From assembly GCA_029244725.1 (NCBI GenBank), contig JAQWQJ010000030.1:1-64000 (forward strand): a DNA stretch of 64,000 nucleotides, given 5' to 3'. The position numbers and the translations under genes were made by a program. This document shows positions 7,885-44,406 of the stretch, piece by piece (the stretch's first letter is position 1; the number at the start of each line of letters is the position of its first letter). The notes under the pieces are model-generated. The model was not told the origin of the DNA and made no database searches. It worked only from the letters and a program-made list of their open reading frames with translations. The DNA is from Paracoccaceae bacterium. Its GTDB lineage: Bacteria > Pseudomonadota > Alphaproteobacteria > Rhodobacterales > Rhodobacteraceae.

Positions 7885-8307
7885 AGGACGACTCGTGGCA
7901 GACTGATTGCCAAATCGGTAACCGAGATTAACTGGCAGAGAAAGCGTGACATTGCGCAACGACAGACGCCCCACACAGGGCATTTGCCTTGGCGGGGGGC
8001 GCATTTCTGCGTCTGTTACTGCGGTATCTAAGGAAAATGGCGGGCCCGCCTAGTGCGGGGTCATACCAGTTTCAGAGGTCGCCCCCTGTACCTGTCGATC
8101 TATAGGTGGTCTGGCAGTCTGTTCGCATCCAAGCTTTCGCTAGCTAGTAAGACCATGACCCGTTTGACGTCGAGATTGGTTTTATCTGGACATCGGTTAA
8201 ATGTTAGTTGGAGTAGCGCACGGTGACGCGTGGTTTCATCTGGTCATCGCATAAACCGAGGACTAAGCAAGCACGACCTGCGCATCCATTCAAAGCAATA
8301 CATCTTC
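7885..8307. other. 423-bp intergenic region between divergent genes, with an imperfect direct repeat
   Basis: No coding or RNA gene is supported here. The region separates the leftward LysE-LLM gene from the rightward MFS gene. Two 24-base segments at 8178-8201 and 8232-8255, 54 bp apart, match at about 20 of 24 positions around ATCTGG-CATCG. They could be a regulator site ahead of the MFS gene or a small duplication. Confidence 0.4.
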
Positions 8308-9522: not shown

Positions 9523-9576
9523 AGAAACGTGCCCAAGCTTTTAGAGGCTTTTAACTTCTCGCAAGAAAAGGCAGTT

Positions 9577-29668: not shown

Positions 29669-30286
29669 ATGGAAACTGAACCTCTCAAATCTGATGCGCA
29701 ACGACTGGGCAGCGAAGTCCGGGAAGTGCGAAAAGCGCGCGGTTTGACGCTGAACGAATTATCAAACGTAGTCTCGTGCTCAACCGCTTACTTAAGCCGG
29801 ATCGAGCGTGGATCAGCGAAGGTCTCGTCAGAACTTCTAGGTGAAATAAGTGCAGCGCTAGCGGTCGATCCCGACTGGTTCTTTCCCAAACAGTCAGGCG
29901 ATGGCCCGCTGGAACGACGTCACGTTGTTCGCGCCGAAAACCGCCGAGCTTTGTCTGGAATGTACACCCGCACCCCCGAAGAATTGGGGTTCGAGGATCA
30001 GTTGCTATCGAGCACTTTGTCCGGCCAATGTTACCTAATCCTATCTCGTTTCCCTGCTGGAAAAGGTGAAAAACCAGAATTTCTAGAAGGGTATGTGTTT
30101 GAGGGAGAACAGCACGCAATTGTTCTAAGCGGAGAGGTTGAGCTGAACCTAGGAGATGAAGTGATCGTCCTGCGTTCTGGGGACAGCTTTAGCTATCCGT
30201 CAACGATCGCTCACCGTTTTCGCAATAGAACAAACCAAGAAGCGACGATGGTTTGGGCGATGTCGCCGGTTCGTATCAGTTGGTAG
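29669..30286 (+). CDS. XRE-family regulator with C-terminal cupin domain (PuuR-like)
   Basis: A 205-residue two-domain regulator. A helix-turn-helix at residues 12-66 (LGSEVREVRKARGLTLNELSNVVSCSTAYLSRIERG) is joined to a C-terminal cupin (EGYVFEGEQHAIVLSGEVELNLGDEVIVLRSGDSFSYPSTIAHRFRN). This is the layout of PuuR and related regulators that sense amines or other small molecules through the cupin. It is divergent from the LLM operon with repeated octamers between them. It also ends ten bases before the 3' end of the monoamine oxidase gene, so the two genes converge. Confidence 0.87.
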   Translation: METEPLKSDAQRLGSEVREVRKARGLTLNELSNVVSCSTAYLSRIERGSAKVSSELLGEISAALAVDPDWFFPKQSGDGPLERRHVVRAENRRALSGMYTRTPEELGFEDQLLSSTLSGQCYLILSRFPAGKGEKPEFLEGYVFEGEQHAIVLSGEVELNLGDEVIVLRSGDSFSYPSTIAHRFRNRTNQEATMVWAMSPVRISW

Positions 30287-30296
30287 AGCAGATGCC

Positions 30297-31550
30297 CTAT
30301 GACATGGCGCGCGACGCGAGCACGTCTTTGGCTACATCAATCCCGCTTTGGTAGGCACCGTGAACCGTGGCGTACGAATTTGTGCTTGTCGCTTCACCCG
30401 CAAAATAGAGTTTTTCATCTATCGGTGCTGCAAGGACCTTACGCGCGCCAGCACCTCCTGGACGTGCATAGCTATAAGCACCTAGTGCGTTCGGTGTCGC
30501 GCGCCATGCAGTTTCATTGGTGGCGCGAATGTACTTGGTGACGCCATTTCCAAAAATGTTTTTCAGGCCCTCAAGACAAAATTCTGTCGCTGCGCCTTTG
30601 CCCTCAAGTTCTAGCTGATCTGCAAAACGACCGGCGACGAAGCCAACGGCCAAATCCGTTTCGAAAAAGCCGAACAAAATCGTACAGAACTCATCGTCAC
30701 TGGTATGATAGTCCGCCATTTCGCCTTCGACAGCGCGTTTCCAAGAAGGGTCGAAATCCAACCCTACTTTGTTGAGCAGACCGTTTGGCAGCTGATTGAT
30801 CGCATCGCGCTTTTCTGGCGGCAGATCGGGCACAAACTGAATGTTTTCGGCCGCCAGAACGCCGGTTGAGACAGTTACAATCACGTGCTTCGCGTTCAGG
30901 GTACCTTCGGTCGTTTCAACGTGAATTTCTGATCCCGTTGTGTCTATCTTAGTGACCGCACAATTGAGTTTTATCGGTAGATTTGGGAACAGGCTTTTAA
31001 CAAAGTCGCCGAGCCCGCCTTGGACCAACCAATTGCCTTCTGTCGAGTCGTACTGGACTATATCTTGCACCGAAGTGACGTCAGAGTCCCCTCCCTGCAT
31101 TTGGGCGATCCAATGCTTGGCAGCTTTCTTCCAGCAAGAGTTTGGCGTTACCTGATATGGGGTTTGATCCACAGGTTCTTTGCCGGCTAGCCTGACCGCC
31201 TTCCACATCTCAAGATGTTCGCTTGTAAAGTCCTCAAGCTCAGCGTCAGTCAAATTATGCTCGTCCGTCCAAGCCCAATTGTAGGTCCATTGCTTCTTGT
31301 AGAGACGTGCACCGCGCTGCTCTGCAAGCCGTGCCAATGGGTTGATCTCGGCTGAGTGAAACCATGCCCCGCCCATATCAAACGGTTGAGCGAACTGGTT
31401 TTTGTCCGTGTAACAACGCCCACCAACGTGACCTGCGGCCTCAAGTACAACAACATCGACCCCAGCTTTGGCCAATGCATCGGCCGCTGCCATCCCAGCC
31501 GCGCCTGCACCGATGACAATGACCTCTGGGTTTGTAGGGAGCGAATTCAT
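30297..31550 (-). CDS. Flavin monoamine oxidase family protein
   Basis: A 417-residue FAD amine oxidase. The Rossmann motif VIVIGAGAAGMAAADALAKAG is at residues 10-30. The family's second motif appears as EAAGHVGGRCYTDKN and MGGAWFHSAEINPL. The C-terminal FAD block is LYFAGEATSTNSYATVHGAYQSG. Family members oxidise primary, secondary or polyamines with O2. Covalent FAD attachment through the C-terminal Cys of vertebrate MAO is not expected, since no Cys is present there. It is the last gene of the five-gene operon starting with the TMADH-like gene, 12 bases after the 76-residue gene. Confidence 0.85.
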   Translation of the reverse strand: MNSLPTNPEVIVIGAGAAGMAAADALAKAGVDVVVLEAAGHVGGRCYTDKNQFAQPFDMGGAWFHSAEINPLARLAEQRGARLYKKQWTYNWAWTDEHNLTDAELEDFTSEHLEMWKAVRLAGKEPVDQTPYQVTPNSCWKKAAKHWIAQMQGGDSDVTSVQDIVQYDSTEGNWLVQGGLGDFVKSLFPNLPIKLNCAVTKIDTTGSEIHVETTEGTLNAKHVIVTVSTGVLAAENIQFVPDLPPEKRDAINQLPNGLLNKVGLDFDPSWKRAVEGEMADYHTSDDEFCTILFGFFETDLAVGFVAGRFADQLELEGKGAATEFCLEGLKNIFGNGVTKYIRATNETAWRATPNALGAYSYARPGGAGARKVLAAPIDEKLYFAGEATSTNSYATVHGAYQSGIDVAKDVLASRAMS

Positions 31551-31562
31551 GTCTACTTTCCT

Positions 31563-31793
31563 TCAATGTGTCAGCAAGATAACCGACAAGCCTTCGAACT
31601 TTGCCAGATCGACTGGGTCTTCTAAATCATCATGACAGCAACGACGGTAAATTTCCAAAACCTCGGGCGAGATTTGACCGCGAACGTAAAGGTACATCGC
31701 AGCCGCGTAACGGCGGGCGCCAGAACCAGGCACGCCAAGCTTGCTATTCAAATGGGCCGTCTGAAGCGCGAGTTCTTCAGTGGCCTCACTCAT
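31563..31793 (-). CDS. Small conserved-looking protein of unknown function coupled to the Rieske oxygenase
   Basis: A 76-residue acidic protein that I do not recognise. It is predicted mostly helical (SEATEELALQTAHLNSKLG, SGARRYAAAMYLYVRGQI, SPEVLEIYRRCCHDD) with an adjacent cysteine pair, CC, near residue 52. It has no signal peptide or membrane segment. Its ATG overlaps the Rieske stop codon (ATGA), and the monoamine oxidase follows 12 bases later, so it is firmly inside the operon. That position suggests an accessory, assembly or electron-transfer-related subunit for one of its neighbours, but this is only inference. Confidence 0.75.
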   Translation of the reverse strand: MSEATEELALQTAHLNSKLGVPGSGARRYAAAMYLYVRGQISPEVLEIYRRCCHDDLEDPVDLAKFEGLSVILLTH

Positions 31794-32989
31794 AGACTTC
31801 CGCTCGTTTGAAGCTGCGCGTTTAGGGCGCGCACCTCTTCTTCATTTGGAGCTTCTTCGACATTGTAGATCGGTAGGACTGCACGCAGATGGTCGTGATG
31901 TGTCCGCACGCCGTATTCCAGATCAGACAAGTAGAACCCCTGAAAGAATTCAGACGCCATGGATTCGTTTGACCAGATTGTCAGTTGGATATCCTCGACC
32001 ACGGTTTCGCGATCGATGCGGCTTGCCAAATACCGTGCTGCTGTCTGCTGTCGGTCTTCGTTTGGATAGCGATAGGTAGCGGAACGCAAGACAGACTGGT
32101 TCAACCCAACCGGAAACTCTTGATAAAAAAGAGAAGTTTCAGGCGTGATCGCGATCACTGAATTCGGGAATATTCCGTAGTAAATCCAGCTTTTGCTTTG
32201 ATCTTCTGGTAGAAAATCCTGCGCCTTTGAGAATTTCTTGTAATTCCGAACAGCCCAGCGTCGTCCTTTTGACGGCGTGTAATGGCCTTGCGAACGACTT
32301 ACCCCATCAACATAGGGTTCATCTTCGTAGCTCGAACCGTACAAATCTTGCAGCGCTGGATGCGCCATTGCTACATGGTACCCCTCATTGTCGACGTCGC
32401 GAATAGACTTCCAGTTTACAGGAGAGTCTTCCGCCCAAATGCCATCAATCGGGATCTGTTGATCCATACGATATAACGCGGCCTCTTCCGAAAATGGACC
32501 AAGCAATTCTGCGACGCTCGGCTGAGGTCCTTTTTTGAAGCGAACGAAGATTAACCCGTTCCAAACTTCGGATTCAAGCGCCAAAAGCGCGAATTCTTTT
32601 TTATCCATGGGCGGGAATGATGTCGGTTTGGCCGCGCCTCGAAGCGTCCCATCCAGATTGTAAACCCAACCATGGAACGGACAAATAAGAGCACTCGGGC
32701 AATTTCCATTGTCTTTGGCCACCAAACGCGAGCCACGATGTCTGCAAGTGTTGTGATATGCACGAACTTCGCCCTCGGCGTCGCGCAAAACAATGGCGCG
32801 CTCTCCGCACATGTCTAGCGTTTGAAAATCACCGCTTTTGGGGATGTCCGAAACATGACAGACAATCTGCCAATGCGTTTTGAACACTTCTTCCTTTTCC
32901 AATTCTAACAGTTCGGCGCTGTGATAACACCAGCCGGGCAATCCTTTGCGGTCCCAATCATTGGGGATACGTGTGTCTCTTTCTGGCAT
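31790..32989 (-). CDS. Rieske non-haem iron oxygenase, alpha subunit (GbcA/stachydrine-demethylase-like)
   Basis: A 399-residue ring-hydroxylating-type oxygenase. The Rieske [2Fe-2S] ligands are C82-x-H84 and C103-x2-H106 (CRHRGS, CPFHGW). The mononuclear iron site follows in RDVDNEGYHVAMAHPAL. Relatives GbcA, Stc2 and CntA cleave quaternary ammonium N-methyl or C-N bonds, which fits the demethylase neighbours. No ferredoxin-reductase partner is in the window. I prefer the ATG at 32989, 26 bases after the FAD oxidase stops, over an ATG at 33049 that would overlap it by 34 bases without a ribosome-binding site. Confidence 0.82.
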   Translation of the reverse strand: MPERDTRIPNDWDRKGLPGWCYHSAELLELEKEEVFKTHWQIVCHVSDIPKSGDFQTLDMCGERAIVLRDAEGEVRAYHNTCRHRGSRLVAKDNGNCPSALICPFHGWVYNLDGTLRGAAKPTSFPPMDKKEFALLALESEVWNGLIFVRFKKGPQPSVAELLGPFSEEAALYRMDQQIPIDGIWAEDSPVNWKSIRDVDNEGYHVAMAHPALQDLYGSSYEDEPYVDGVSRSQGHYTPSKGRRWAVRNYKKFSKAQDFLPEDQSKSWIYYGIFPNSVIAITPETSLFYQEFPVGLNQSVLRSATYRYPNEDRQQTAARYLASRIDRETVVEDIQLTIWSNESMASEFFQGFYLSDLEYGVRTHHDHLRAVLPIYNVEEAPNEEEVRALNAQLQTSGSL

Positions 32990-33015
32990 AGGTTTTCCAA
33001 AATTGTCGTTGGTCG

Positions 33016-34332
33016 TTAGGGTCTCAAAGTATCCATCATCCGTTTCCATGTCAGCGCAATGGTAATTCCCTGATTTCGAAAACGATTGAACGGTATTTTT
33101 GGCATCGGCGTAAGGGGTAGAAAGTCATCACCCTGTTTATCAGTGCAATGTGCCGCAAGAATTTTGCCAAACATCGTGCCCATTGCAACACCGCGACCGT
33201 TAAATCCAAGACCACTATAGAGCCCTTCGGCCAATTTATGGATATGGGGTACATGATCGAGCGTTAGCGCCACGCGGCCCGTCCACAAATGCTGGACAGT
33301 TTTGATATCCACCTCTGGGAAAATCTCACGCATGCGGCTTAGCCCGAAACCAAAGTTGTCCTCATGGATCACTTCTTTTTGCGTGTTGATGCGGCTTCCA
33401 AACAGCAGTCTATCCTCGGCGTCAATTCCGAACCAAGACAATAGCCGTTGAGTGTCTGCTGCGCCCTGCCGTTCTGGCAGTATCTTTGATTTCAGGTTGT
33501 CGCTCAATGGGTCAGTCGCCACTACGCCGGTTAATACAGGCACGATTGAGTTCGCAAGACCGGGCAACATAGTGCCGGTGTATCCGTTTGTGCACACGAC
33601 CACAGTCTCGGCCGAAATTGTGCCATTTTCGGTGGTAACCTGCCAATGTTTGCTATTGTGCTGTACCGCAGTTGCTGGCGTTTTTGGATAAATCTGAACA
33701 CCCAACGACAAGCAGGCCGCTGCCAATCCGCGTGCATATTTAAGTGGATGAAGGTTTCCGCCACGATCATCAATCAACCCACTGGCATAGGCCGTTGTGC
33801 CAATGCGCGGCTCAATCTCATCCTTGCGTAGCGTGCGAACCGAAACCCCGCGTTGGCCCCATTGATCGACATGCGAGTCCGTGGTGACCCGCCCGTGATC
33901 CCCTTTGGCCAACTGAAACCAGCCAGTTCGGCGTAGATCGCAATCGATCTTGTATCGATCGATCAGATCAAACACGAGGCCGGGCGCTGAGCCTGCTGTG
34001 GTTGCAATCTGTTCACCCCGTTCAGATCCAAAACGCTCAACCATTTCATCTGGCAAAATCTTGAGGCCAGGAATGACCTGCCCACCATTCCTGCCCGAAG
34101 CACCCCAACCGGGTTCGTGGGCATCAACAACCGCGACGTTCACCCCCTGCTCTGCCAAATGCAGTGCCGTTGACAAGCCACAAAAGCCTGCGCCAACGAC
34201 GGCCACGTCGACCGAAATATCTTGTGAAAGTGGTGACAACTCGGGCAGATCCCCCGCAGTTTTCCCCCAAAGAGACGTTTTGATATGGCAACTAGATTGA
34301 TACCACGCCGAGTTTTTCGCTGATGATGTCAT
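33016..34332 (-). CDS. FAD-dependent amine oxidase, PuuB/OrdL-like
   Basis: A 438-residue DAO-fold flavoprotein with the N-terminal tail of gamma-glutamylputrescine-oxidase-like enzymes (SSCHIKTSLWGKTAGDLP) before the Rossmann motif VAVVGAGFCGLSTALHLAEQG at about residue 43. EPGWGASGRNGGQV is the family fingerprint, and WTGRVALTLDHVPHIHKL with GLYSGLGFNGRGVAMGT forms the C-terminal flavin block. It should oxidise a secondary or primary amine to an imine. It overlaps the TMADH-like gene by four bases (ATGA) and precedes the Rieske gene. The true substrate is unknown. Confidence 0.83.
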   Translation of the reverse strand: MTSSAKNSAWYQSSCHIKTSLWGKTAGDLPELSPLSQDISVDVAVVGAGFCGLSTALHLAEQGVNVAVVDAHEPGWGASGRNGGQVIPGLKILPDEMVERFGSERGEQIATTAGSAPGLVFDLIDRYKIDCDLRRTGWFQLAKGDHGRVTTDSHVDQWGQRGVSVRTLRKDEIEPRIGTTAYASGLIDDRGGNLHPLKYARGLAAACLSLGVQIYPKTPATAVQHNSKHWQVTTENGTISAETVVVCTNGYTGTMLPGLANSIVPVLTGVVATDPLSDNLKSKILPERQGAADTQRLLSWFGIDAEDRLLFGSRINTQKEVIHEDNFGFGLSRMREIFPEVDIKTVQHLWTGRVALTLDHVPHIHKLAEGLYSGLGFNGRGVAMGTMFGKILAAHCTDKQGDDFLPLTPMPKIPFNRFRNQGITIALTWKRMMDTLRP

Positions 34333-36407
34333 GATGGAAACTCCGGCCAGACTTTTCCGACCTCAAAGTCGTTCTCACGTCGGAAAGGCATGTCTTTGTC
34401 TATCGGCATCTCAAGACTGCGGGCATATTCGTGGCCCCCGTAAACGGCTTGTGCGATTGTGCCGGGTACGTAGCAATCTCCAATTCTGACGACTGTTTTT
34501 ATGCCATTATCTGCCCATTCGTCCTGGCGTTTTATCAATTCGTTGTACAAGTTGTCATCGCTTGACCGAGACGTAACCGGCACCACTGCTCCCACGTCGA
34601 CCCGCCTAGGTTTGCCAGTAAAGACGCACTCAAGCTCGACGTAACCGTCGCCAATTGAGCCTATGCCTTTGTTGCAAATGATCTCAACATTCAGATTACG
34701 AAGGCGGGTTTGGATGTGTTCATATTCTAAGGTGAAATGGGTCCAACCTGAAACTTCGGCCGCGGGTGTTACTAGCACGACCTCAACTCCGCTGCTGGCA
34801 AGGTGTTCTGCAATGGAGCCGCCTAGATAGTAATGGTCATCGTCAAACACCATCACGGGCCCTTTGGGCGTGACACCGTTCATCACGTCCTCAGGTCGGA
34901 CGACCATGGGCGCGTGAATCTCAGGGGCAAATCGGTGGTGACTGCCGACGCAATCCAGTCGCCAACTTGAACCAGTCGCAATCGCAACATGGGCGCTACC
35001 CATCTCAAGTACACCGGCTGCGTCAAGCTTACTTTGCGTGAAGCTGTTGACGTTCGAACGTGTCGACAAAAGATTGGTACGATAGTCAGCGACGCGGTTC
35101 CATTGACGCAGAGGCGGCAAAGAGGATTCCCTTGCCACACGACCACCGAACTGATCGCTCGCTTCGGCCAACGTCACATCGTAACCGCGGTTTGATACTG
35201 CAAGTGTAGCCTCAAGCCCCGACGGACCGCCACCAACAACAAGCACACTGTCGTTTGATTTGGCTGCTGGAATTTTTTCTGGGTGCCAGCCCTTGCGCCA
35301 TTCTTCGCCCATCGTAGGATTTTGCGTGCAGCGCATTGGATAGGCTACATAATCCCCTGACGTACACATGTTGCAACCAATGCATTCGCGAATTTCGTCG
35401 CTGCGCCCTTCTTCAATCTTCTTGGGCAGGAACGGGTCCGCAATCGAGGGCCGCGCCGCGCCGATCAGATCGAGAACGCCGCGTTTTATCTGGCTAACCA
35501 TCGTGTCTGGCGACGTAAACCGCCCAACGCCGACAACAGGCTTGGTCGTCAGCTTTTTCACAAAGCTCACATAGTCTTCCTGAGACCCTTCGGTGCCAAA
35601 TCGCGAGGGCAGTGAATCGTTGCTCCAATCCGCGACGTTCACATCCCAAAGGTCCGGTATTTCCGCCAGAGAACCTACGATATCCTCGGCCTCGGCGACA
35701 TTCATGCCTTCCGAACCGAGCAACTCGTCAACAGCAAAGCGGAACGCGACAGCGCAATCCGCGCCGATTGCGTCTTTGGTTTCCTCAAGCACTTCACGCA
35801 CCAAACGCACGCGGTTTTCTAGGCTGCCACCGTATTCGTCGCTTCGTTGGTTAGTTCTTTTAAGCATGAACTGATACAGCAGCGTCATAAGACCATGCGC
35901 AGCGTAGACATAAACGATGTCGTACCCAGCACGTCTAGACCGCAGGGCAGCCTCTCGAAACCACCGACGCAATGTCTTGATATCGTCCTTGTCCATCGCC
36001 CGTGCCTGCGTGGAGTTCATGGTGTCCGTGGGGGTTGCAGACGGGGCCATGGGTGCCATGCGCGTCAGATAATTGCTGACGGACTGCCCATTGTGGACAA
36101 GCTGGATGCCGGCCAATGCACCTTGATCGTGAACTTTCCGTATCATCAGTTCGTGCACTGCAAGGTCGCTGTCATCCCACAGCCGCATTAAAGTGGCTGG
36201 CGTCAGATCGCTGGTTGGATGGATAGAACATTCCTCTGTGCAAATAACGCCCCAACCGCCTTCGGCTTTGACCCCCCGCATTTCCGCCATTGTGCGCGGC
36301 CAACGATGCCCCATGCCATTGCAATGGGGAACTTGGTAGAACCTGTTCTTGGTTGTTTTCGGTCCGATTTGAAGCGGCTCAAAAAGTATTCTGTGATTTT
36401 CTTCCAT
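34329..36407 (-). CDS. Trimethylamine/dimethylglycine-dehydrogenase-like iron-sulfur flavoprotein (paralog 1)
   Basis: A 692-residue member of the TMADH/DMADH/DgcA family: an FMN TIM barrel, a [4Fe-4S] site and a C-terminal ADP-binding domain (SVLVVGGGPSGLEATLAVSNRG). By recalled alignment to TMADH, Cys29 matches the FMN-linking Cys30 and Cys342/345/348/360 match the cluster ligands. Tyr168, His171 and Asp264 match the catalytic Tyr169-His172-Asp267. Of the aromatic bowl (Tyr60, Trp264, Trp355) only Trp261 remains; the others become Glu59 and an Asp. It should oxidatively demethylate an N-methyl amine that is not trimethylamine. It heads the five-gene operon. Confidence 0.85.
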   Translation of the reverse strand: MEENHRILFEPLQIGPKTTKNRFYQVPHCNGMGHRWPRTMAEMRGVKAEGGWGVICTEECSIHPTSDLTPATLMRLWDDSDLAVHELMIRKVHDQGALAGIQLVHNGQSVSNYLTRMAPMAPSATPTDTMNSTQARAMDKDDIKTLRRWFREAALRSRRAGYDIVYVYAAHGLMTLLYQFMLKRTNQRSDEYGGSLENRVRLVREVLEETKDAIGADCAVAFRFAVDELLGSEGMNVAEAEDIVGSLAEIPDLWDVNVADWSNDSLPSRFGTEGSQEDYVSFVKKLTTKPVVGVGRFTSPDTMVSQIKRGVLDLIGAARPSIADPFLPKKIEEGRSDEIRECIGCNMCTSGDYVAYPMRCTQNPTMGEEWRKGWHPEKIPAAKSNDSVLVVGGGPSGLEATLAVSNRGYDVTLAEASDQFGGRVARESSLPPLRQWNRVADYRTNLLSTRSNVNSFTQSKLDAAGVLEMGSAHVAIATGSSWRLDCVGSHHRFAPEIHAPMVVRPEDVMNGVTPKGPVMVFDDDHYYLGGSIAEHLASSGVEVVLVTPAAEVSGWTHFTLEYEHIQTRLRNLNVEIICNKGIGSIGDGYVELECVFTGKPRRVDVGAVVPVTSRSSDDNLYNELIKRQDEWADNGIKTVVRIGDCYVPGTIAQAVYGGHEYARSLEMPIDKDMPFRRENDFEVGKVWPEFPS

Positions 36408-36510
36408 TACTTTTCACTCGCCCTTTATTCCAAACGTTGTTTCCCTTCGCTGCTATCCGCTGCGAAAATTTAATCGCCAGAACGCCCGCAGAAGAACTTG
36501 GCAACTATTT

Positions 36511-36532
36511 TCTGACTGGTTGTTCAGTCAGA
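36511..36532. promoter_or_regulatory. TetR/BetI-type operator upstream of the TMADH-like operon
   Basis: Arms TCTGACT and AGTCAGA flank eight bases (36511-36532). The sequence shares TCTGACTG and GTTCAG at the same spacing with the palindrome at 37438-37459 before the ABC transporter. It lies about 105 bp upstream of the first TMADH-like gene and 60 bp after the bicupin gene. The probable ligand is the TetR-type regulator encoded at 41674. Confidence 0.6.
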
Positions 36533-36590
36533 GATTATACCGAACGGTGTCGCATATCCATTTTGCTAACCGATTACATTTCTTGCCGCC

Positions 36591-37319
36591 CTACGCAGCT
36601 TTTCCAATTCTACAGAAAAAGGCAGTTGTATGGGCGTCTGTTGCCCAATTGCATTCTGTGCCAGCGGGAACGAAAAACGCCTCGCCCTTTTCAAATATTT
36701 GGTCTGTTCCATTTTCTTTTAGATGCACGCGTCCACTCAGAACGTAGACAAATTCGTGACTATCTGAACTCATATCAACCGGCTGAGCGTGATCGACTAC
36801 CCTCATACCAGCCTCAAGATCAGCCGTGTCATTCACATGTGCGATTGCTTCTTTCCAATCACCAACTGGGGTCAACCGAGGTGACAATTCATGCTCGCGC
36901 AGAATATTTATACCGCCCTCAAAATCTGAATCTTTGAGAGCTGTTCGGTCTGGCGGACAGTGGATCACGAAAAACTTCCGGCAAAATCCTTGTTGCTTCC
37001 AACTGATTGGAAGGCCGTTTTTTACTGCAAATGTATCACCACATTCGACAAGCGTTTCTAGCCCATCACCGTCAATAAAAATAACATTCCCCTCCAGAAG
37101 GACCATGAATTCGTCGCCTGGGTAAGGGCCGAACGCTTCTTGCATGTCAGTGGTTGTCCAAACCCCCACATAGAGACCAGCGGCATCGTCTTCATAATAA
37201 AGATGCCAATTCTGCTCGGGCAGATCAGACTGGAAGTCTGCCGCATCTAATTCCATGCGGGACAACCCCATTCCAGGAGGTCCGTTTGGCTGGAGCCTTA
37301 TCGTAGACAGTTTCGTCAC
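36591..37319 (-). CDS. Bicupin protein, possibly (S)-ureidoglycine-aminohydrolase-like fold
   Basis: A 242-residue protein with two cupin halves. The first (residues about 50-120) contains GPYPGDEFMVLLEGNVIFIDGDGLETLVECGDTFAVKNG. The second (about 170-240) contains DSHEFVYVLSGRVHLKENG and KGEAFFVPAGTECNWAT. The second half keeps E/H-type metal-ligand candidates. There is no DNA-binding domain, so it is an enzyme or binding protein rather than a regulator. Function is unknown. The start is GTG with an AGGGGGA site. It lies between the TMADH-like operon and the divergent ABC operon. Confidence 0.72.
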   Translation of the reverse strand: MTKLSTIRLQPNGPPGMGLSRMELDAADFQSDLPEQNWHLYYEDDAAGLYVGVWTTTDMQEAFGPYPGDEFMVLLEGNVIFIDGDGLETLVECGDTFAVKNGLPISWKQQGFCRKFFVIHCPPDRTALKDSDFEGGINILREHELSPRLTPVGDWKEAIAHVNDTADLEAGMRVVDHAQPVDMSSDSHEFVYVLSGRVHLKENGTDQIFEKGEAFFVPAGTECNWATDAHTTAFFCRIGKAA

Positions 37320-37437
37320 TGGTTCCCCCTCAGTAAATCAAATTCAAAAATTTGATCAAATCACTGATTTTTTGTCGACTCATGCGCGAGTCTCTGCTTA
37401 GCTTGAACTTGACTCACTCGAATTTCCACGCTTACCT

Positions 37438-37459
37438 TCTGACTGAACGTTCAGATAGT
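37438..37459. promoter_or_regulatory. TetR/BetI-type operator upstream of the ABC transporter operon
   Basis: A perfect 12-bp palindrome CTGAACGTTCAG (37443-37454) lies inside a 22-base segment that matches the 36511 site over TCTGACTG and GTTCAG. It lies about 85 bp before the transporter start and about 120 bp before the leftward bicupin start. BetI-type regulators favour sites of the TGAACGTTCA type. Confidence 0.65.
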
Positions 37460-37542
37460 CAACACCAAGCATTCATCTTCTACGTCAATGTAGGCTTTGG
37501 GAATAAGGGCTGAACGTCACAATTGGGAGAGGATCACTGATC

Positions 37543-38652
37543 ATGAAAACGACCACGAAATTGATGGGTCTTACCATCACTGTCGCATCTAGTGCCTTGC
37601 TGGCCGGTTCGGCCTTGGCGCAAGACCGAGTTCTGAAAGTTACGAACTGGGGCGAGTATATTGCTGAAGACACCATCGCAAACTTCGAATCCGAGTACGG
37701 TATCAAGGTTATCTACGACACATACGATTCCGCGGAATCGATTGATGCGAAGCTTCTTGCTGGAAACAGCGGATACGACGTCGTCAGCCACTCGGGTGGC
37801 GATACCGCACGTCTGATCAAGGCTGGAATTGTTGCGCAGCTCGACAAGTCGAAACTTGACAACGTTCAACACATGGACCCCTCGCTGATGGCGCAACTGG
37901 CCGCTGATTGGGACCCAGGTAACAACCACTTCGTACCCTATATGTGGGGTACACATGGTGTGACATACAACGAAGCATTGGTGCTAGAGACCTATCCAGA
38001 TGCGCCTATCGGCTCAATGGACATGGTGTTTGATCCGGTTCACATGGCGGCGTTGGCAAAATGTGGCGTGTCGTTCCTTGATTCACCGGGCGACATCATT
38101 CCGATGGCACTGGCCCATCTTGGCCTAGACCCGAACTCAACAAAGTCCGAAGATTATGAGGCCGTTGGCGAAATGCTTGCGAAGATCCGTCCTCACATCA
38201 AGACATTCGACAACTACGCTTACCAGCGTATGCCACAGCGTGAATTCTGTGTGTCGACGACTTGGGGACCTGATGGCCTATTGGCAATGTCAGGCGCTGA
38301 AGAAGCTGATACCGGTGTTGTTCTCGACTTCTTCCTTCCTGAAGGAAAAGGCAAAGCGCAACTATGGATCGACGGTTGGTTGATCCCTGCCGACGCCAAA
38401 AACATCGATGATGCGCACCTGTTCCTGAACTACATGATGCGCCCGGAAGTTGGTGCAGCAGACAGTAACTACACATGGTACGCGACGGCTAACCTGACCG
38501 GTAAAGCAATGGTTGATGAGGATGTAACCTCAAGCCCAGCTGCGTTCCCGACATCAGCACAAGTTGATAACATGTACACAACTGCGGTTCTGCCTCCTAA
38601 AGTCGAGCGTCTACAGACACGTACTTGGACAAACTTCAAAGCTGGCAACTAA
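37543..38652 (+). CDS. Polyamine-type ABC transporter substrate-binding protein (PotF/PotD-like)
   Basis: A 369-residue periplasmic binding protein with a signal peptide (MKTTTKLMGLTITVASSALL..., likely cleaved after SALA at about residue 26). Compared with PotF, the amine-contact residues persist: the NWGEYIA motif keeps the Trp and Tyr, TTWGPD keeps Trp244 and Asp247, and LWIDGW keeps Asp278. This supports a cationic amine ligand, though changes at neighbouring positions suggest it is not simply putrescine. It heads a pot-type operon and is followed by a stabilising hairpin. Confidence 0.87.
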   Translation: MKTTTKLMGLTITVASSALLAGSALAQDRVLKVTNWGEYIAEDTIANFESEYGIKVIYDTYDSAESIDAKLLAGNSGYDVVSHSGGDTARLIKAGIVAQLDKSKLDNVQHMDPSLMAQLAADWDPGNNHFVPYMWGTHGVTYNEALVLETYPDAPIGSMDMVFDPVHMAALAKCGVSFLDSPGDIIPMALAHLGLDPNSTKSEDYEAVGEMLAKIRPHIKTFDNYAYQRMPQREFCVSTTWGPDGLLAMSGAEEADTGVVLDFFLPEGKGKAQLWIDGWLIPADAKNIDDAHLFLNYMMRPEVGAADSNYTWYATANLTGKAMVDEDVTSSPAAFPTSAQVDNMYTTAVLPPKVERLQTRTWTNFKAGN

Positions 38653-38677
38653 TCAGCAAGCTTTGCTTAAAGAAAAC

Positions 38678-38706
38678 GGCAGCGGTGGGTGTTTTCCTCC
38701 GCTGCC
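38678..38706 (+). other. Intercistronic stem-loop after the binding-protein gene
   Basis: Perfect 8-bp arms GGCAGCGG/CCGCTGCC extend past one T-T mismatch with two more pairs. It sits 25 bp after the binding-protein stop and before the ATPase. Such hairpins usually protect the binding-protein mRNA and lower downstream expression. Confidence 0.7.
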
Positions 38707-38745
38707 AAATTATCCCAAATCGATAAATTAAGGTGTGATTAGGCC

Positions 38746-39882
38746 GTGGAATCCTCGAACACAGACATGCCGTGGCTAGACCGCGACAACAACAAACCAT
38801 TCGTCGAAATACGTGGCCTCACAAAAAAATTCGGTGATGTAACTGCCGTCGATAATGTCGACCTTGAGATTTACCGAGGCGAATTGTTTTGTCTGTTGGG
38901 TGGATCAGGTTGCGGCAAAAGCACATTGCTTAGAATGCTCGCTGGCTTTGAATTCCCTGAGAGCGGTTCAATCATCATTGAAGGCACAGACATGTCCAGC
39001 GTGCCTGCTTACGAACGCCCAACAAATATGATGTTCCAAAGCTACGCCCTGTTTCCGCATATGAGCGTTGAAAAAAACATTGCGTTTGGTTTGCAACAGG
39101 ACGGCATGAACAAAAGCGAAATCGCCGATCGCGTACATGAAATCCTCAAGCTGGTTGAGCTGCAAGACTTTAAAAAGCGCAAGCCCCAGCAATTGTCCGG
39201 TGGTCAGCGCCAACGCGTCGCCCTAGCCAGATCGCTGGTGAAGGAGCCCAAGCTGTTGCTGCTCGACGAACCGCTTGCAGCTCTCGACAAGAAACTGCGC
39301 AAACAAACGCAGTTCGAACTGGCCAATATTCAGGAACAAGTCGGCGTGACGTTTATCGTCGTGACCCATGACCAAGAAGAAGCGATGACGCTTTCGACCC
39401 GCATGGCCGTCATGGACGCCGGTCGCTTCAAGCAGATCGGCACCCCTACCGAGATTTATGAATTCCCCGAATCCCGTATGGTCGCTGACTTCATCGGCTC
39501 GGCCAACTTTATCGAGGGGCGCGTCAAGGAAGATGGCGCGGATCACGTTTTGGTCGAAACGGATATGGGCGAGGTCTATATCGACCACGGCCACGCAGTG
39601 GTTTCCGGCAGCAAGATTTGGGTAGCAATCCGGCCCGAGAAGATATCGATCAGCAAGACCCCTCCGGCAAAGGCTGGTCCCAACCAAATCCAAGGCATTG
39701 TCGATGACATTGGTTATTTGGGCGATACTTCGATCTATAAAGTCCTACTCGAAAACGGTCAGATTGTAGATGTGACTTCCCCAAACCACATACGCCCGAT
39801 TAGTAGGAAACACGCGATCACTTGGGAAGACAAGGTCTATCTCAATTGGGCACCCTCTAGCGCTATGTTGCTGAATTCATGA
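38746..39882 (+). CDS. Polyamine-type ABC transporter ATP-binding protein (PotG/PotA-like)
   Basis: A 378-residue ABC ATPase. Walker A is GGSGCGKST near residue 56, the signature is LSGGQRQRVALARSL, Walker B is LLLLDEPLAALD, and the switch histidine follows in FIVVTHDQEEAMTLS. A C-terminal TOBE regulatory domain spans about residues 290-378. The start is GTG at 38746; an ATG seven codons downstream is an alternative. Its stop overlaps the first permease start (ATGA), so assembly of the complex is translationally coupled. Confidence 0.92.
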   Translation: MESSNTDMPWLDRDNNKPFVEIRGLTKKFGDVTAVDNVDLEIYRGELFCLLGGSGCGKSTLLRMLAGFEFPESGSIIIEGTDMSSVPAYERPTNMMFQSYALFPHMSVEKNIAFGLQQDGMNKSEIADRVHEILKLVELQDFKKRKPQQLSGGQRQRVALARSLVKEPKLLLLDEPLAALDKKLRKQTQFELANIQEQVGVTFIVVTHDQEEAMTLSTRMAVMDAGRFKQIGTPTEIYEFPESRMVADFIGSANFIEGRVKEDGADHVLVETDMGEVYIDHGHAVVSGSKIWVAIRPEKISISKTPPAKAGPNQIQGIVDDIGYLGDTSIYKVLLENGQIVDVTSPNHIRPISRKHAITWEDKVYLNWAPSSAMLLNS

Positions 39883-40832
39883 CTTCGGTTCCGGACAACA
39901 TGCCCAACGATAAACAGGTCTCGATCGGCAAGCGGCTAAGCCGGATGGCACAATCAAACTGGCGCGCCATCATCGTCTTTATACCCTATGTCTGGCTGCT
40001 GCTGTTCTTCCTTTTGCCGTTCTTTATCGTTGCAAAAATCAGCTTGGCTGAACTGCAAATCTCTAGCCCGCCATTTTCAGACATGATCGAGTGGACGGAC
40101 AGTGGGATAATGACCATACGACTGGTCTTTGACAATTACCTCTACATTATCTCCGACAATTTGTATTTCGATACATACGTCAATTCGCTTAAGATTTCGG
40201 TGACATCTACCATCCTGTGCCTGCTGTTTGGTTACCCAATTGCTTATGGCATTGTGCGCTCTGGCCCGACTGTGAAGCCGCTTTTGTTGTTTGCCATTAT
40301 CCTGCCGTTCTGGACGTCTTTTCTGCTGCGGGTATATGCGTGGATGGGGCTGCTTTCGGATCAGGGAACCATCAATAACCTGTTGATCCGACTTGGCATA
40401 ATCGACGACCCAATTCGCATGCTTTACACTGAATTCGCGGTTTATGTGGGGATCGTCTACACATACATGCCGTTTATGATCCTGCCGCTTTATGCCAATA
40501 TGGAAAAGCTTGATATCAGCTTGAATGAGGCCGCGGCGGATCTTGGCTCTCGTCCGACAAATACGTTTTTTAAAGTTACGCTACCACTCACAATACCCGG
40601 CATTATTGCCGGTTCACTACTCGTGTTCATTCCGGCAACGGGCGAATACGTTATTCCTGACCTGTTGGGGGGCGGGAATGTGCAAATGATCGGCCGGGTT
40701 CTCTACAATGAATTCGCGCGAAATACGGATTGGCCGGTGGCGGCTTCGGTCGCCATCGTTCTTCTCTTCCTTTTGGTACTGCCGATAATTGTATTCCAGT
40801 ACTACCAAGGCAAAGCATCGGAGAGGTCATAA
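39879..40832 (+). CDS. Polyamine-type ABC transporter permease (PotH/PotB-like)
   Basis: A 317-residue inner-membrane permease with six membrane segments after a cytosolic N-terminal tail of about 28 residues. The EAA loop that contacts the ATPase reads EAAADLGSRPTNTFFKVTLPLTIPG near residue 212. It overlaps the ATPase gene by four bases and is followed two bases later by the second permease. With it, it forms the heterodimeric channel of a cationic-amine importer. Confidence 0.92.
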   Translation: MTSVPDNMPNDKQVSIGKRLSRMAQSNWRAIIVFIPYVWLLLFFLLPFFIVAKISLAELQISSPPFSDMIEWTDSGIMTIRLVFDNYLYIISDNLYFDTYVNSLKISVTSTILCLLFGYPIAYGIVRSGPTVKPLLLFAIILPFWTSFLLRVYAWMGLLSDQGTINNLLIRLGIIDDPIRMLYTEFAVYVGIVYTYMPFMILPLYANMEKLDISLNEAAADLGSRPTNTFFKVTLPLTIPGIIAGSLLVFIPATGEYVIPDLLGGGNVQMIGRVLYNEFARNTDWPVAASVAIVLLFLLVLPIIVFQYYQGKASERS

Positions 40833-40834
40833 TC

Positions 40835-41677
40835 ATGCATGGTTCGCGCTCTCGATTTTTAACGATCATGATTTCCTTGGGGATGGCATTTTTCTACATC
40901 CCGATGATTTTGCTGGTGATCTATTCCTTTAATTACTCAAAACTCGTGCCCGTTTGGGGCGGGTGGTCAACGCGCTGGTACAAGGTTCTTTTTGAATCCG
41001 CCGACGTTTGGAACGCGGTCTCTCTTAGCCTTAAGATCGCATTTGTGAACGCCACTTTTGCAACGATCCTCGGCACTCTTTCAGCACTCGCCATGGTTCG
41101 CTTTGGAAGATTCAAAGGCAGAACGCTGTTTGGCGGTATGTTGGTGGCACCTCTAGTCATGCCAGAGATCATCACCGGCTTGTCTCTACTCGTTTTGTTC
41201 ATCTCGATGCAGCAATTGTTCGGTTGGCCGTCTGAGCGTGGTTTCACCACGATCACCATCGCCCACATAACTTTCTCACTGGCTTATGTGGCAGTCACCG
41301 TGCAAGCGCGCCTAACTGGCATGGGTGAAGACCTTGAAGAGGCTGCGGCTGACCTTGGTGCCAAACCCTTTAAGGTGCTAACTGCAATCACGCTACCGCG
41401 CCTAACCCCTGCGCTTGCATCAGGTTGGTTGTTGGCTTTCACGCTTTCGCTGGATGATCTTGTGATTGCCAGCTTCGTCACTGGCCCCGGGGCCAATACG
41501 CTACCCATCCTCATTTTCTCACGTATTCGTCTGGGCCTACGGCCTGATATCAACGCCTTGGCTACGATGATCATTCTGACTGTCGCAGTCTGCGTCGCCC
41601 TTGCAGCGCTGATTATGTACCGCCAGCACAAGCGCGATCTGTTGGATCAGCAAATGGCAAAACGGGGCGATTCATGA
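40835..41677 (+). CDS. Polyamine-type ABC transporter permease (PotI/PotC-like)
   Basis: A 280-residue permease with six membrane segments. Its EAA loop reads EEAAADLGAKPFKVLTAITLPRLTP near residue 165. I chose the ATG at 40835, which has a GGAGAGG ribosome-binding site just upstream and matches family N-termini; the longer frame overlaps the preceding permease gene. Its stop overlaps the TetR-type regulator start (ATGA). Confidence 0.92.
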   Translation: MHGSRSRFLTIMISLGMAFFYIPMILLVIYSFNYSKLVPVWGGWSTRWYKVLFESADVWNAVSLSLKIAFVNATFATILGTLSALAMVRFGRFKGRTLFGGMLVAPLVMPEIITGLSLLVLFISMQQLFGWPSERGFTTITIAHITFSLAYVAVTVQARLTGMGEDLEEAAADLGAKPFKVLTAITLPRLTPALASGWLLAFTLSLDDLVIASFVTGPGANTLPILIFSRIRLGLRPDINALATMIILTVAVCVALAALIMYRQHKRDLLDQQMAKRGDS

Positions 41678-42312
41678 GCGGAGAAATTGAAACTGCTCAG
41701 CCGAAAAAGCGCACAGCCCCGAAAGAGGTTCGACGAAAGCAGCTGATAATGGCGGCAATCGACTCAATCTCGAAACGGGGATTTTCAGACACGACACTGC
41801 GTCACGTAACCGAGGCTGCGGGGCTATCTCATGGCGTGGTGAACTACCATTTCGACAGCAAAGAGGCGCTCTACGACGCCACGCTTGGCTATCTTGCGCA
41901 AGAACATTACGGCATGTGGTCTCGGTATCTAGCCGATGCAGGGAACGATGCGGCCCAACAGCTTGAAAGCATTATCCGCGCAGATTTTGACAAGAAGATA
42001 TGCACACACACTAAGCTTGCCGTTTGGTTCGCGTTTTGGGGACAGGCGAAATACCGGCCAAACTATATAAAGATACACAATAAATACGACAACGAGCGGG
42101 ATCAGCATATCCTTGAGCTTTGCAGCCAATTGATAGCATCGGGTGGGTATACAAACCTTGAGGCTGAACGCGCAGCACGCATGATCGAAACGCAAACTGA
42201 CGGAGCATGGCTTAGCCTACTTCTTTATCCCAAAGTCGCGCCACGTCAGGAATTGCTGCAAGATTGCCTAGACCTGCTTGCACGGCTGTTTCCCGATCAC
42301 TATTCAGTTTAG
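41674..42312 (+). CDS. TetR-family regulator, BetI-like
   Basis: A 212-residue regulator. The N-terminal HTH covers residues about 20-65 (RRKQLIMAAIDSISKRGFSDTTLRHVTEAAGLSHGVVNYHFDSKEALY). The C-terminal ligand domain resembles BetI (HTKLAVWFAFWGQAKYRPNY). BetI represses choline-betaine genes and is released by a quaternary amine. Translationally coupled to the transporter, it probably autoregulates the operon via the palindrome at 37438 and the TMADH-like operon via the site at 36511. Confidence 0.87.
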   Translation: MSGEIETAQPKKRTAPKEVRRKQLIMAAIDSISKRGFSDTTLRHVTEAAGLSHGVVNYHFDSKEALYDATLGYLAQEHYGMWSRYLADAGNDAAQQLESIIRADFDKKICTHTKLAVWFAFWGQAKYRPNYIKIHNKYDNERDQHILELCSQLIASGGYTNLEAERAARMIETQTDGAWLSLLLYPKVAPRQELLQDCLDLLARLFPDHYSV

Positions 42313-42336
42313 CCCGAAACATAGGCGTACATAGCC

Positions 42337-44406
42337 ATGACGACTTCCCCCTATAGCATTCTGTTTGAACCCGTAGAAATTGGGCCGGTCACAGCAAAAA
42401 ACAGATTCTATCAGGTGCCCCACTGCACGGGCAGCGGCGCGCTGCGCCCCCGCATTCTGGCGGGTCTTCGTGGCTCAAAAGCCGAAGGCGGTTGGGGCGT
42501 GATCAATACTGAATACTGCTCTGTTCATCCATCATCAGATGATTTGCCCTACCCAAGTGCTACGCTTTGGGATGATCGCGACATCAAGGCGCACACCTTA
42601 ACAACCGACAAAATCCATGCTCACGGCGCCCTTGCCGGTGTTGAGCTTTGCTTAGGCGGTGCCCGTATGGCCAATCTGGCAACCCGCGAAGTTGCACTTA
42701 GTTCCGGCAATTTACCCAACTTGGCGGGCAACCCGTTTCAAACCCGCCAGATGGATAAAACCGATATCAAGAACGCCCGACGCTGGCACCGAGACGCGGC
42801 CCTTCGCGCAAAGTCCGCTGGCTTTGACATTGCCTACGTCTACGCCACCCATGGCTACCTGCTATCTCAATTCATGTCTGGAAAAATGAACCATCGCACG
42901 GACGAATACGGAGGGGTTCTGGCGAATCGTATCCGCCTTTTGCGCGAAGTCATCGAAGACACGAAAGATGCGGTTGGTGACACTATGGCCATCGCGGTCA
43001 GATTTTCGGCTGAAACCAACGGAGGCGGCGGCGGTGACGGCGCACCTATCCCGGGTGAAACCGAAGAGATCTTTGGAATGCTTGGCGAATTGCCCGATCT
43101 GTGGGACATCAACGTCAGCGACTATTCCCTAGAAATGGGTCTGTCCCGTTTTGTGCCAGAAGGCGCATTGGAACCCTACGTTGCCGCTATGAAGTCGATG
43201 ACCTCAAAGCCAGTTGTTTCGGTTGGACGCTTCACCTCGCCCGATACAATGGTCAGCCAAATCAAGCGCGGCATTATGGATTTCATTGGCGCGGCGCGTC
43301 CATCAATTGCTGATCCGTTCTTGCCAAATAAGATCGCCGAGGGCCGACCAGAGGATATCCGCGAATGTATAGGTTGCAATATTTGCTACACAGGCGACGG
43401 CAAAGGCGTGCCGATCCGCTGCACGCAAAACCCGTCAATGAGCGAGGAATGGCGACGCGGTTGGCACCCTGAGACCATGAACAAAAAACGCTCGGACGAC
43501 ACGGTTTTGATCGTCGGCGCTGGTCCAACTGGTCTAGAGGCCGCGCAAGCCTTGGGCAAACGTGGGTACAATGTGATGTTGGCCGAAGCCACCCGAGAGT
43601 TGGGCGGTCGGGTGACCCTTGAATCTCAACTTCCGAGTTTGGGTCAATTGGCGCGCGTGCGCGACTATCGTCTTGGGCAAATCGAAAAACTAGATAATGT
43701 CGAAATCTTCCGTGAAAGCGATTTAACGGCTGAACAGGTATTTGAGATCGCACCCGATCATGTTGCTATCGCAACTGGCGCAACTTGGCGACGCGACGGC
43801 TACGGCGCAAATGCGCTGGGATGCATCACGGGTCTTGCCGGGGCGCGTAACATCTATACCCCCAACGACATCATGGCAGGTAATATACCCCAAGGTCGAA
43901 CCATCGTTTACGACGACGACCACTATTACATGGGGTCGGTGATTGCGGAAACCCTGCGCCAAAAAGGTTTGGACGTGACCCTGGTGACGCCTGGGGACGT
44001 CTTGTCGAGTTGGGGCGCATACACGATGGATCGCGGTCGGGCGCAAAGCCGGCTTATGGAGCTGGGAGTAGAATTAATCGTGTCAAAAAGCCTGACTTCG
44101 TTTGACGGTCAAAGCGCCCATTTCGAGTGTAATTACACCGGACGCAAAACTATGCGTGAGACTGGTTCAATGGTGCTGGTCACAGCGCGCAAACCAAACG
44201 ATCAGCTTTATCAAGACTTGATCGCGCATCCATCGTACGAAAACGGAGCTGCTTTTAAGTCCCTCAAAAAAATAGGCGACTGCGACGCGCCGGGCATAAT
44301 AGCGGCTGCCACTTTTGCAGGACACCGCTATGCGCGTGAACTTGAAGAGAATGTCGATATCGACAACCCATTAAAGTACGACCGCGTTTTTTCTTGTTGT
44401 GACTGA
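42337..44406 (+). CDS. Trimethylamine/dimethylglycine-dehydrogenase-like iron-sulfur flavoprotein (paralog 2)
   Basis: A 689-residue paralog of the protein at 34329-36407 with the same FMN-barrel, [4Fe-4S], ADP-binding layout (VLIVGAGPTGLEAAQALGKRG). By recalled TMADH alignment, Cys30 (FMN link), Tyr60, Tyr169 and His172 are retained and Cys344/347/350/362 bind the cluster. The bowl Trp264 is Tyr263, Trp355 is an Asp, and catalytic Asp267 is Glu266. Compared with paralog 1 there is a glycine-rich insert (GGGGGDG) near residue 230. It follows the TetR gene by 24 bp and closes the transporter operon. Electron transfer to ETF is expected from the family. Confidence 0.85.
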   Translation: MTTSPYSILFEPVEIGPVTAKNRFYQVPHCTGSGALRPRILAGLRGSKAEGGWGVINTEYCSVHPSSDDLPYPSATLWDDRDIKAHTLTTDKIHAHGALAGVELCLGGARMANLATREVALSSGNLPNLAGNPFQTRQMDKTDIKNARRWHRDAALRAKSAGFDIAYVYATHGYLLSQFMSGKMNHRTDEYGGVLANRIRLLREVIEDTKDAVGDTMAIAVRFSAETNGGGGGDGAPIPGETEEIFGMLGELPDLWDINVSDYSLEMGLSRFVPEGALEPYVAAMKSMTSKPVVSVGRFTSPDTMVSQIKRGIMDFIGAARPSIADPFLPNKIAEGRPEDIRECIGCNICYTGDGKGVPIRCTQNPSMSEEWRRGWHPETMNKKRSDDTVLIVGAGPTGLEAAQALGKRGYNVMLAEATRELGGRVTLESQLPSLGQLARVRDYRLGQIEKLDNVEIFRESDLTAEQVFEIAPDHVAIATGATWRRDGYGANALGCITGLAGARNIYTPNDIMAGNIPQGRTIVYDDDHYYMGSVIAETLRQKGLDVTLVTPGDVLSSWGAYTMDRGRAQSRLMELGVELIVSKSLTSFDGQSAHFECNYTGRKTMRETGSMVLVTARKPNDQLYQDLIAHPSYENGAAFKSLKKIGDCDAPGIIAAATFAGHRYARELEENVDIDNPLKYDRVFSCCD

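Follow-up and report, generated by a model that had tools for sequence, protein, structure and literature searches.

A predicted TetR-controlled gene cluster for the uptake and oxidation of a cationic amine in a Paracoccaceae bacterium

Histamine dehydrogenases deaminate their substrate and belong, with trimethylamine dehydrogenase (TMADH) and dimethylamine dehydrogenase (DMADH), to one superfamily of flavin/4Fe-4S enzymes. Characterised members of the clade oxidise histamine, agmatine, putrescine and 1,3-diaminopropane, according to excerpts of PMC10180351, and 6-hydroxypseudooxynicotine oxidase, as described in a portion of PMC5500553, releases methylamine from an N-methylaminoalkyl chain. 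Two other described systems are relevant here, the putrescine importer PotFGHI and the Rieske oxygenases of the quaternary-ammonium (group V) kind, such as the carnitine monooxygenase CntA. Roseobacter-group marine bacteria eat methylated nitrogen compounds, and many of their amine oxidases and Pot-type importers still lack an assigned substrate. Here we investigate a stretch of 64,000 nucleotides from a Paracoccaceae bacterium (GenBank assembly GCA_029244725.1, contig JAQWQJ010000030.1, our contig C71 of a 3.85 Mb genome; hereafter the window), in which relatives of these systems stand together at 30297-44406. An initial annotation had read this region as a pathway for the import and stepwise N-demethylation of a methylated cationic amine. 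What remains of that proposal is a probably co-regulated unit for the uptake and oxidation of a cationic amine; the strict series of steps is not supported. The pathway looks real, with enzyme subtypes of unassigned function and a putative, perhaps N-methylated substrate.

All of the genes named in the initial annotation are intact open reading frames (ORFs) within this interval, which coincides with a conserved unit. Two operons diverge from a gap at 37320-37542. On the reverse strand, the leftward operon comprises a bicupin (36591..37319; Cupin_3/Cupin_2, with no HxH metal motif seen on inspection by eye), a flavin/4Fe-4S amine dehydrogenase of the TMADH/histamine-dehydrogenase clade designated HADH1 (34329..36407), a DAO-family flavin oxidase of PuuB/AmaA-like type (33016..34332), the Rieske oxygenase (31790..33049) and a MAO-like flavin amine oxidase (30297..31550; PF01593). 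On the forward strand, the rightward operon encodes a PotF-like periplasmic binding protein (37543..38652), a PotG-like ABC ATPase (38746..39882; 402.1 bits, above the potA subfamily cut-off of 355.6), PotH-like (39879..40832) and PotI-like (40835..41677) permeases, a TetR regulator with a BetI-type C-terminal domain (41674..42312) and a second clade member, HADH2 (42337..44406). Domains were assigned with Pfam and NCBIfam, and PotH and PotI through homology to the permeases of relatives; the ATG start of PotI is likewise taken from homologues, the mechanical ORF beginning with TTG at 40730. The top NCBIfam model for the PuuB/AmaA-like oxidase is L-pipecolate oxidase AmaA, at 331.7 bits and below its cut-off of 600. 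Overlaps of 4 bases at HADH1/PuuB, PotG/PotH and PotI/TetR are operon-like.

Is this a unit, or a chance assembly? We searched 295 genomes of the family, its own included; genomes, loci and contigs are designated G, L and C. The Rieske gene is present at 71–75% identity in G063, G098, G161 and G248, each time adjoining PotFGHI at 76–85%, and further loci with Rieske (70–74%) and PotFGHI (74–84%) were found in Tropicibacter sp. Alg240-R139, an uncultured Sulfitobacter, Ruegeria denitrificans CECT 5091 and a Tateyamaria metagenome-assembled genome. All eight of these closest clusters contain a MAO-like gene (33–55% identity), five contain TetR, two the bicupin and one a close PuuB (68%). A HADH-clade gene lies within the locus in five and about 19 kb from the Rieske gene in a sixth (G098). 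Only in G248 (L165 and L072) is the complete gene set of the window found in the same layout. Because G248 holds this full set and the core of Rieske, PotFGHI and MAO recurs in the eight relatives, the arrangement goes beyond chance: the genes form one unit, bicupin-HADH1-PuuB-Rieske-MAO facing PotFGHI-TetR-HADH2.

The neighbours of HADH2 point the same way. A HADH2-type gene is present in 19 of the 295 genomes, and within 9 kb of the other 18 such genes we counted TetR 17 times, PotG 14, the bicupin 10, MAO 8, PuuB 7, another clade member 8, an aminotransferase 4 and Rieske 0 times, these counts being lower bounds because some stretches end at contig ends. Around 20 histamine-dehydrogenase-type genes taken as a control, PotG was present 13 times and every other marker was absent.

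The pairing of Rieske oxygenase and importer extends further. At E <= 1e-80 the Rieske gene was found in 39 of the 295 genomes (own included), and in 23 of the 24 loci examined, from the 38 other genomes, a PotG-like gene (at least 240 bits) lies within 9.5 kb. The same was seen in 40 of 44 loci from named organisms, those of at least 45% identity among 80 loci retained of 589, a set that may overlap with the family genomes; many of the 80, at 60–64% identity, belong to Rhizobiales. No Pot match lies near the three other Rieske genes of the genome that holds the window (L114, L115). These related modules otherwise vary, with a GcvT-type aminomethyltransferase, two FAD oxidoreductases, a class III aminotransferase and sometimes a second Rieske gene. 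GcvT-type proteins (at least 100 bits) occur near 14 of the 24 loci, and the one tested scored highest on the trimethylamine N-oxide (TMAO) demethylase model. Because of this composition, N-demethylation followed by transamination is suggested as a general theme of the modules, and to that extent the N-demethylation proposed earlier has support. The L038 locus encodes, at 7347-10931, domains of kynureninase and of tryptophan 2,3-dioxygenase beside a 52% identical Rieske gene and a Pot-type importer, a hint at a tryptophan-derived substrate in that genome.

The TetR regulator scores below the cut-off of the BetI model TIGR03384 (101.2 against 201.3 bits). In the divergent intergenic region, an exact copy of the palindromic candidate operator TCTGAAYGNTCAGTCAGA lies at 37438..37455 on the reverse strand, the sole exact copy in the genome. 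A degenerate palindromic copy with 3 mismatches is found in the bicupin-HADH1 gap (36511..36532), and G248 has copies at both equivalent places, with 0 and 2 mismatches. The motif was derived after the sites in the window, L069, L070, L072 and L298 had been viewed, which leaves L170 and L172 as the fully independent cases. The motif is present in the gap between importer and enzyme genes in all seven loci with a cluster TetR (window included), with 0–1 mismatch at best, and in none of six loci without one (L071, L301, L171, L190, L205, L213), of which L071 and L301 reach contig ends and may lack TetR only in the data. In 26 control loci (473,705 bases) it had no match at up to 3 mismatches. 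The motif is missing from 13 of 14 other HADH2 loci, L306 having a 3-mismatch match; a 2-mismatch palindrome in L166 of G063 lies within a clade gene. Both operons are probably switched by the cluster's own TetR.

What kind of enzymes are HADH1 and HADH2? Their best solved relatives are histamine dehydrogenases (Nocardioides simplex 3K30 and Rhizobium sp. 6DE6, 680–776 bits), followed by 6L6J and then TMADH (550.6 and 516.1 bits). Both proteins keep the flavin-linking Cys30, the four 4Fe-4S cysteines, the catalytic Tyr/His pair and Asp358 of histamine dehydrogenase. The TMADH aromatic bowl, which we take to be Tyr60, Trp264 and Trp355, is altered to Glu/Trp/no Trp in HADH1 and Tyr/Tyr/no Trp in HADH2, which thus retains Tyr60; HADH2 also has Glu for Asp267. 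Trp355 aligns as an insertion beside Asp358, and both proteins have a gap there next to the histamine-dehydrogenase Asp; a gap at Asp358 itself in a first alignment was resolved by later ones. Trimethylamine was rejected as a substrate, since Trp355 is missing. In N. simplex numbering, used here for positions 35, 65, 267, 270, 358 and so on, the site reads Cys35, Glu65, Trp267, Asp270, Asp358 in HADH1 and Cys35, Tyr65, Tyr181, Tyr267, Glu270, Asp358 in HADH2, the latter set being invariant in 19 of 19 sequences (window and 18 family members, 59–74% identity); the site is less constant in relatives farther off (Phe65 in L210, Glu358 in L080). The histamine pocket listed in excerpts of PMC10180351 comprises Gln65, Ile74, Phe77, Glu79, Asn115, Tyr181, Trp267 and Asp358. 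The residues at these positions are E, L, A, L, S, L, W, D in HADH1 and Y, D, Y, S, R, Y, Y, D in HADH2, so that each keeps two of eight, and histamine too was rejected.

Phylogenetically, HADH1 groups with sequences from G161 and G248 (99/100) and HADH2 falls in a clade of eight rows (100/99). Neither joins the TMADH/DMADH-like or the histamine dehydrogenase clade in this tree, which leaves several deep forks unresolved and has 6L6J on a long branch. As DgcA references we took six proteins that adjoin DgcB (DUF3483). They are 25–31% identical to HADH1/HADH2, and the five that were included in the tree cluster together (100/99) across a split of 100/100. The window's own genome has no DUF3483/DgcB domain, and on these grounds DgcA is ruled out; a protein on contig C25, tried as a DgcA candidate, was placed far off. 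A literature search for 6L6J gave nothing relevant, and its identity was set by an 82% match to NdpC of Shinella sp. HZN7, annotated as 6-hydroxypseudooxynicotine oxidase; NdpC is 47–48% identical to HADH1/HADH2. The label of TMADH/DgcA-type demethylases given to the two proteins is therefore right as to the TMADH superfamily and wrong as to DgcA and the TMADH pocket. Nor is demethylase supported, because the nearest characterised relatives remove an amino or methylamino group rather than a methyl group. HADH1 and HADH2 are apparently two uncharacterised subfamilies of the clade.

Other members of the superfamily were met in passing. G300 and G313 (L168, L169) carry paired Tyr60-type and Gln60-type dehydrogenases with Trp355, resembling genuine trimethylamine and dimethylamine dehydrogenases, beside ORFs that by eye are like electron transfer flavoprotein (ETF). 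L091 (980-12900), on a Leisingera caerulea plasmid, is possibly a further methylated-amine cluster. It combines a clade dehydrogenase of the Glu65 type and a GbcA-like Rieske protein that has the Cys pair with an agmatinase, an MttB-family protein, an ABC importer and two solute-binding proteins.

All four parts of the PotFGHI system are present in the window. The binding protein scores below the NCBIfam equivalog NF007962 (305.6 bits against a cut-off of 636), and its pocket was compared with the putrescine-binding residues listed in excerpts of PMC8666671. The reference sequence, 7OYX, comes from an engineered PotF that departs from wild type at positions 38, 88, 182, 276 and 348, so the argument uses positions 37, 39, 85, 185, 244, 247, 278 and 314. 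The window protein has W37, E39, Y40, S85, D88, D185, W244, D247, W276, D278 and Y314, and Gly in place of R254. The aromatic box (W37, W244, W276) is kept, and the carboxylates D39/E185/D247/D278 are E, D, D and D. The acidic amine contacts of the initial annotation are thereby borne out, and the importer has a pocket of the diamine type. The differences from the putrescine importer are the gain of Asp88, the loss of R254 and a position within an oxidase cluster. Asp88 is shared by six of seven close orthologues with an intact gene, namely the window, G063, G098, G161, G248 and G274, the seven being the window and six at 76–83% identity, with position 88 unchecked in L170, L171, L172 and L190; the G150 copy has an in-frame stop. 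Among HADH2 clusters, a PotF-type binding protein is found in G274, G248, G063 and G098, and none was assigned in G193, G266, G270 and G114.

A Rieske profile built from 14 sequences scores CntA at 168.8 bits (profile 19–353 of 401) and 3VCA/4QUP, which we take to be the stachydrine demethylase Stc2, at 148.3, with the best other entry at 127.2. The single-sequence similarity of the window protein to these enzymes is weak (101 bits). All 14 sequences share the cluster ligands (CRH/CPFH motifs), bridging Glu222 and the two histidines of the 2-His site, His225 and His230, and the bridging Glu corresponds to CntA E205 (excerpt of PMC10952381). The enzyme is thus nearer to CntA/Stc2 than to aromatic-ring oxygenases, and its stated relationship to betaine demethylases holds, the nearest being the carnitine and stachydrine oxygenases.

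Gene content, conservation, the candidate operator, enzyme subfamily and pocket residues are all read from sequence, and on them we build the following scheme, whose step order, methyl groups, dication, TetR binding and ligand, ETF link and separately encoded Rieske reductase we infer. PotFGHI would import the amine. Inside the cell, the Rieske enzyme may oxidise a quaternary N-methyl group, with a reductase presumably encoded elsewhere. HADH1 and HADH2 would oxidise tertiary, secondary or primary C–N bonds and pass electrons onward, probably to ETF, and the remaining amine would be converted to an aldehyde by the two oxidases, PuuB-like and MAO-like, joined in relatives by an omega-aminotransferase. 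Substrate-bound TetR would release the operator copies, turning on both operons.

With moderate confidence, then, we read the locus as a catabolic unit under TetR control that combines uptake with oxidative N-dealkylation or deamination, its substrate being a cationic amine that is probably dicationic and N-methylated. The unit is supported by the complete set in G248, the HADH2-specific neighbours compared with the control and the operator that tracks TetR. A cationic substrate is supported by the four carboxylates and aromatic box of PotF, with Asp88 in six of seven, and a quaternary nitrogen by the Rieske profile matches and the bridging Glu. For oxidation at amine C–N bonds the support is two clade members with their flavin-linking and cluster cysteines and the known amine substrates of the clade; for a demethylation theme it is the GcvT-type proteins of related loci, given the resemblance of the tested one to TMAO demethylase. 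Clade activities, Rieske affinity and PotF pocket together favour an N-methylated di- or polycationic amine. In literature under PMC open licences we found no account of this cluster or of a catabolic route for methylated polyamines or N-methylated diamines; for homarine, a further candidate, the literature gave no gene description for comparison. The cluster supplies a candidate regulon, operator, binding protein and two dehydrogenase subfamilies without a characterised member found, and identification of the ligand would give function to genes labelled merely 'polyamine ABC transporter' or 'FAD-dependent oxidoreductase'.

Several observations weigh against this reading. The Rieske gene lies 9.7 kb from HADH2 in G248, 10.5 kb in G063 and 19.2 kb in G098, and 15 of the 18 other HADH2 genes have none within 20 kb; it is at least 53 kb away in G025, G166, G200 and G303, and 11 of the 18 genomes have none at E <= 1e-80. 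G274 retains importer, MAO, a HADH1-type gene and HADH2 without it. Absence of the Rieske gene near most HADH2 genes implies that methylation is not required for the core enzymes, and on these counts the strict quaternary-tertiary-secondary series proposed at the outset is not supported. Likewise, in 10 of 18 HADH2 clusters the binding protein has W37, W244 and W276 but Gly39, Ser247 and Cys278, and this loss of D39, D247 and D278 implies that those clusters do not need a dication. Asp88 is replaced by Met in G189 and, in more distant proteins, by Gln (L205) and Ala (L213). All eight closest clusters contain a class III aminotransferase, the single one tested exceeding the NCBIfam NF005447 cut-off. 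None was found in the window, nor in the other 49.8 kb of contig C71, and the best copy in the genome, 54% identical, is on a different contig; this too speaks against a fixed quaternary-to-primary series. In L170 and L172, two of the eight, the 21 kb seen include a GcvT-type gene in place of any HADH gene.

To the same side belong features of the Rieske enzyme and of the operator. The Cys pair of CntA/Stc2 is missing, EGYHV standing instead of ECYHC; such a Cys-X-X-Cys pair at the iron site is restricted to some group V members (excerpt of PMC10952381). No dedicated reductase was found in the cluster, and the only two FAD_binding_6 genes of the genome resemble, by eye, PaaE (beside a PaaC-like gene) and a membrane ferric-reductase-like protein; C115:219708, tried as the reductase, was rejected as it looks like PaaE. 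The weaker operator copy is no better than 20 other matches with 2–3 mismatches in the 3.85 Mb genome, so it rests on position, symmetry and G248. Beside five of these background matches (C46, C115:79250, C30, C63:25276 and C115:218590, the last inside the PaaC-like gene) no amine gene was seen. The reversed pattern had 5 matches, against 23.

In its fullest form, the preferred reading is a complete pathway for an N-methylated diamine, in which the importer would deliver a dication, the Rieske enzyme would open it at its quaternary end and active sites of two types new to the TMADH/histamine-dehydrogenase family, Glu/Trp/Asp/Asp (HADH1) and Tyr/Tyr/Glu/Asp (HADH2), would strip the remaining N-substituents; we offer this only tentatively. 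Rather unlikely, in our judgement, is the catabolism of an ordinary non-methylated di- or biogenic amine (putrescine, agmatine, histamine or similar), with the Rieske enzyme serving a side reaction or another compound. The conserved PotF carboxylates would suit it, as would G274 without Rieske, the affinity to the histamine dehydrogenase clade, 13 of 20 of whose histamine-dehydrogenase-type genes have a PotG-like gene within 9 kb, and the relatives' aminotransferase, which resembles polyamine:pyruvate and putrescine transaminases. It fits poorly with histamine-pocket conservation at only two of eight positions, with the loss of R254 and gain of Asp88, and with the place of the Rieske gene, which in the window and in G248 alike is a member of the operon and follows the operator copy that precedes HADH1.

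A cyclic or aromatic N-methyl amine, alkaloid-like, is distinctly unlikely. Here the model would be nicotine breakdown, in which a clade member cleaves a methylamino side chain in company with a Pot-type importer and TetR. NdpC does sit with ABC solute-binding proteins, permeases and TetR on pShin-05, and in a portion of PMC5500553 the same enzyme of A. tumefaciens S33 is accompanied by putrescine/spermidine-type binding proteins. NdpC nevertheless lacks the flavin-linking Cys and Asp358 kept in both window proteins and has a different pocket, and its cluster includes a ring-degrading set, with no Rieske gene annotated within the stretch seen. Two binding proteins of nicotine clusters differ from PotF at the pocket carboxylates, and the window cluster has no recognised ring-opening gene.

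It is very improbable that the cluster serves a known betaine route (for glycine betaine, choline, carnitine or proline betaine), even with a Rieske enzyme related to GbcA, CntA and Stc2, a BetI-like regulator domain and a BCCT transporter at 48579-50396. On the GbcA model NF058607 the Rieske protein scores 124 bits against a cut-off of 670, and no GbcA in the genome exceeds that cut-off. With DgcB absent and HADH1/HADH2 distinct from DgcA, glycine betaine degradation via GbcA/DgcAB was rejected. The PotF carboxylates should also disfavour a carboxylate ligand, and the roseobacters studied use MtgB-type methyltransferases for glycine betaine (excerpt of PMC12478193). Diatom N-methylated long-chain polyamines, the natural source once suggested, are very unlikely and gained no specific support: the closest clusters from named organisms are in Roseobacter-group bacteria, but the related modules are frequent in Rhizobiales, where two binding proteins aligned were of another type, the retained PotF residues are those of a putrescine pocket (excerpts of PMC8666671), and a literature search found no link.

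The genes flanking the unit (XRE-cupin regulator, M19 dipeptidase, aldehyde dehydrogenase, LysR and BCCT) have no good match among the close clusters and were excluded from it. The XRE-cupin regulator (29669-30286), a weak PuuR match, adjoins the MAO-like gene. Beyond the window, at C71:89984-97390 (L117 6984-14390), ORFs resembling tetrameric sarcosine oxidase subunits in size and N-terminal sequence precede a protein that weakly matches the MttB family; together they could form a separate route for compounds of the glycine betaine type. Adjoining HADH2 at 44457-46882 are the M19 dipeptidase, 33–34% identical to dipeptidases that adjoin dgcA-like genes, and the aldehyde dehydrogenase, which could handle an aldehyde product.

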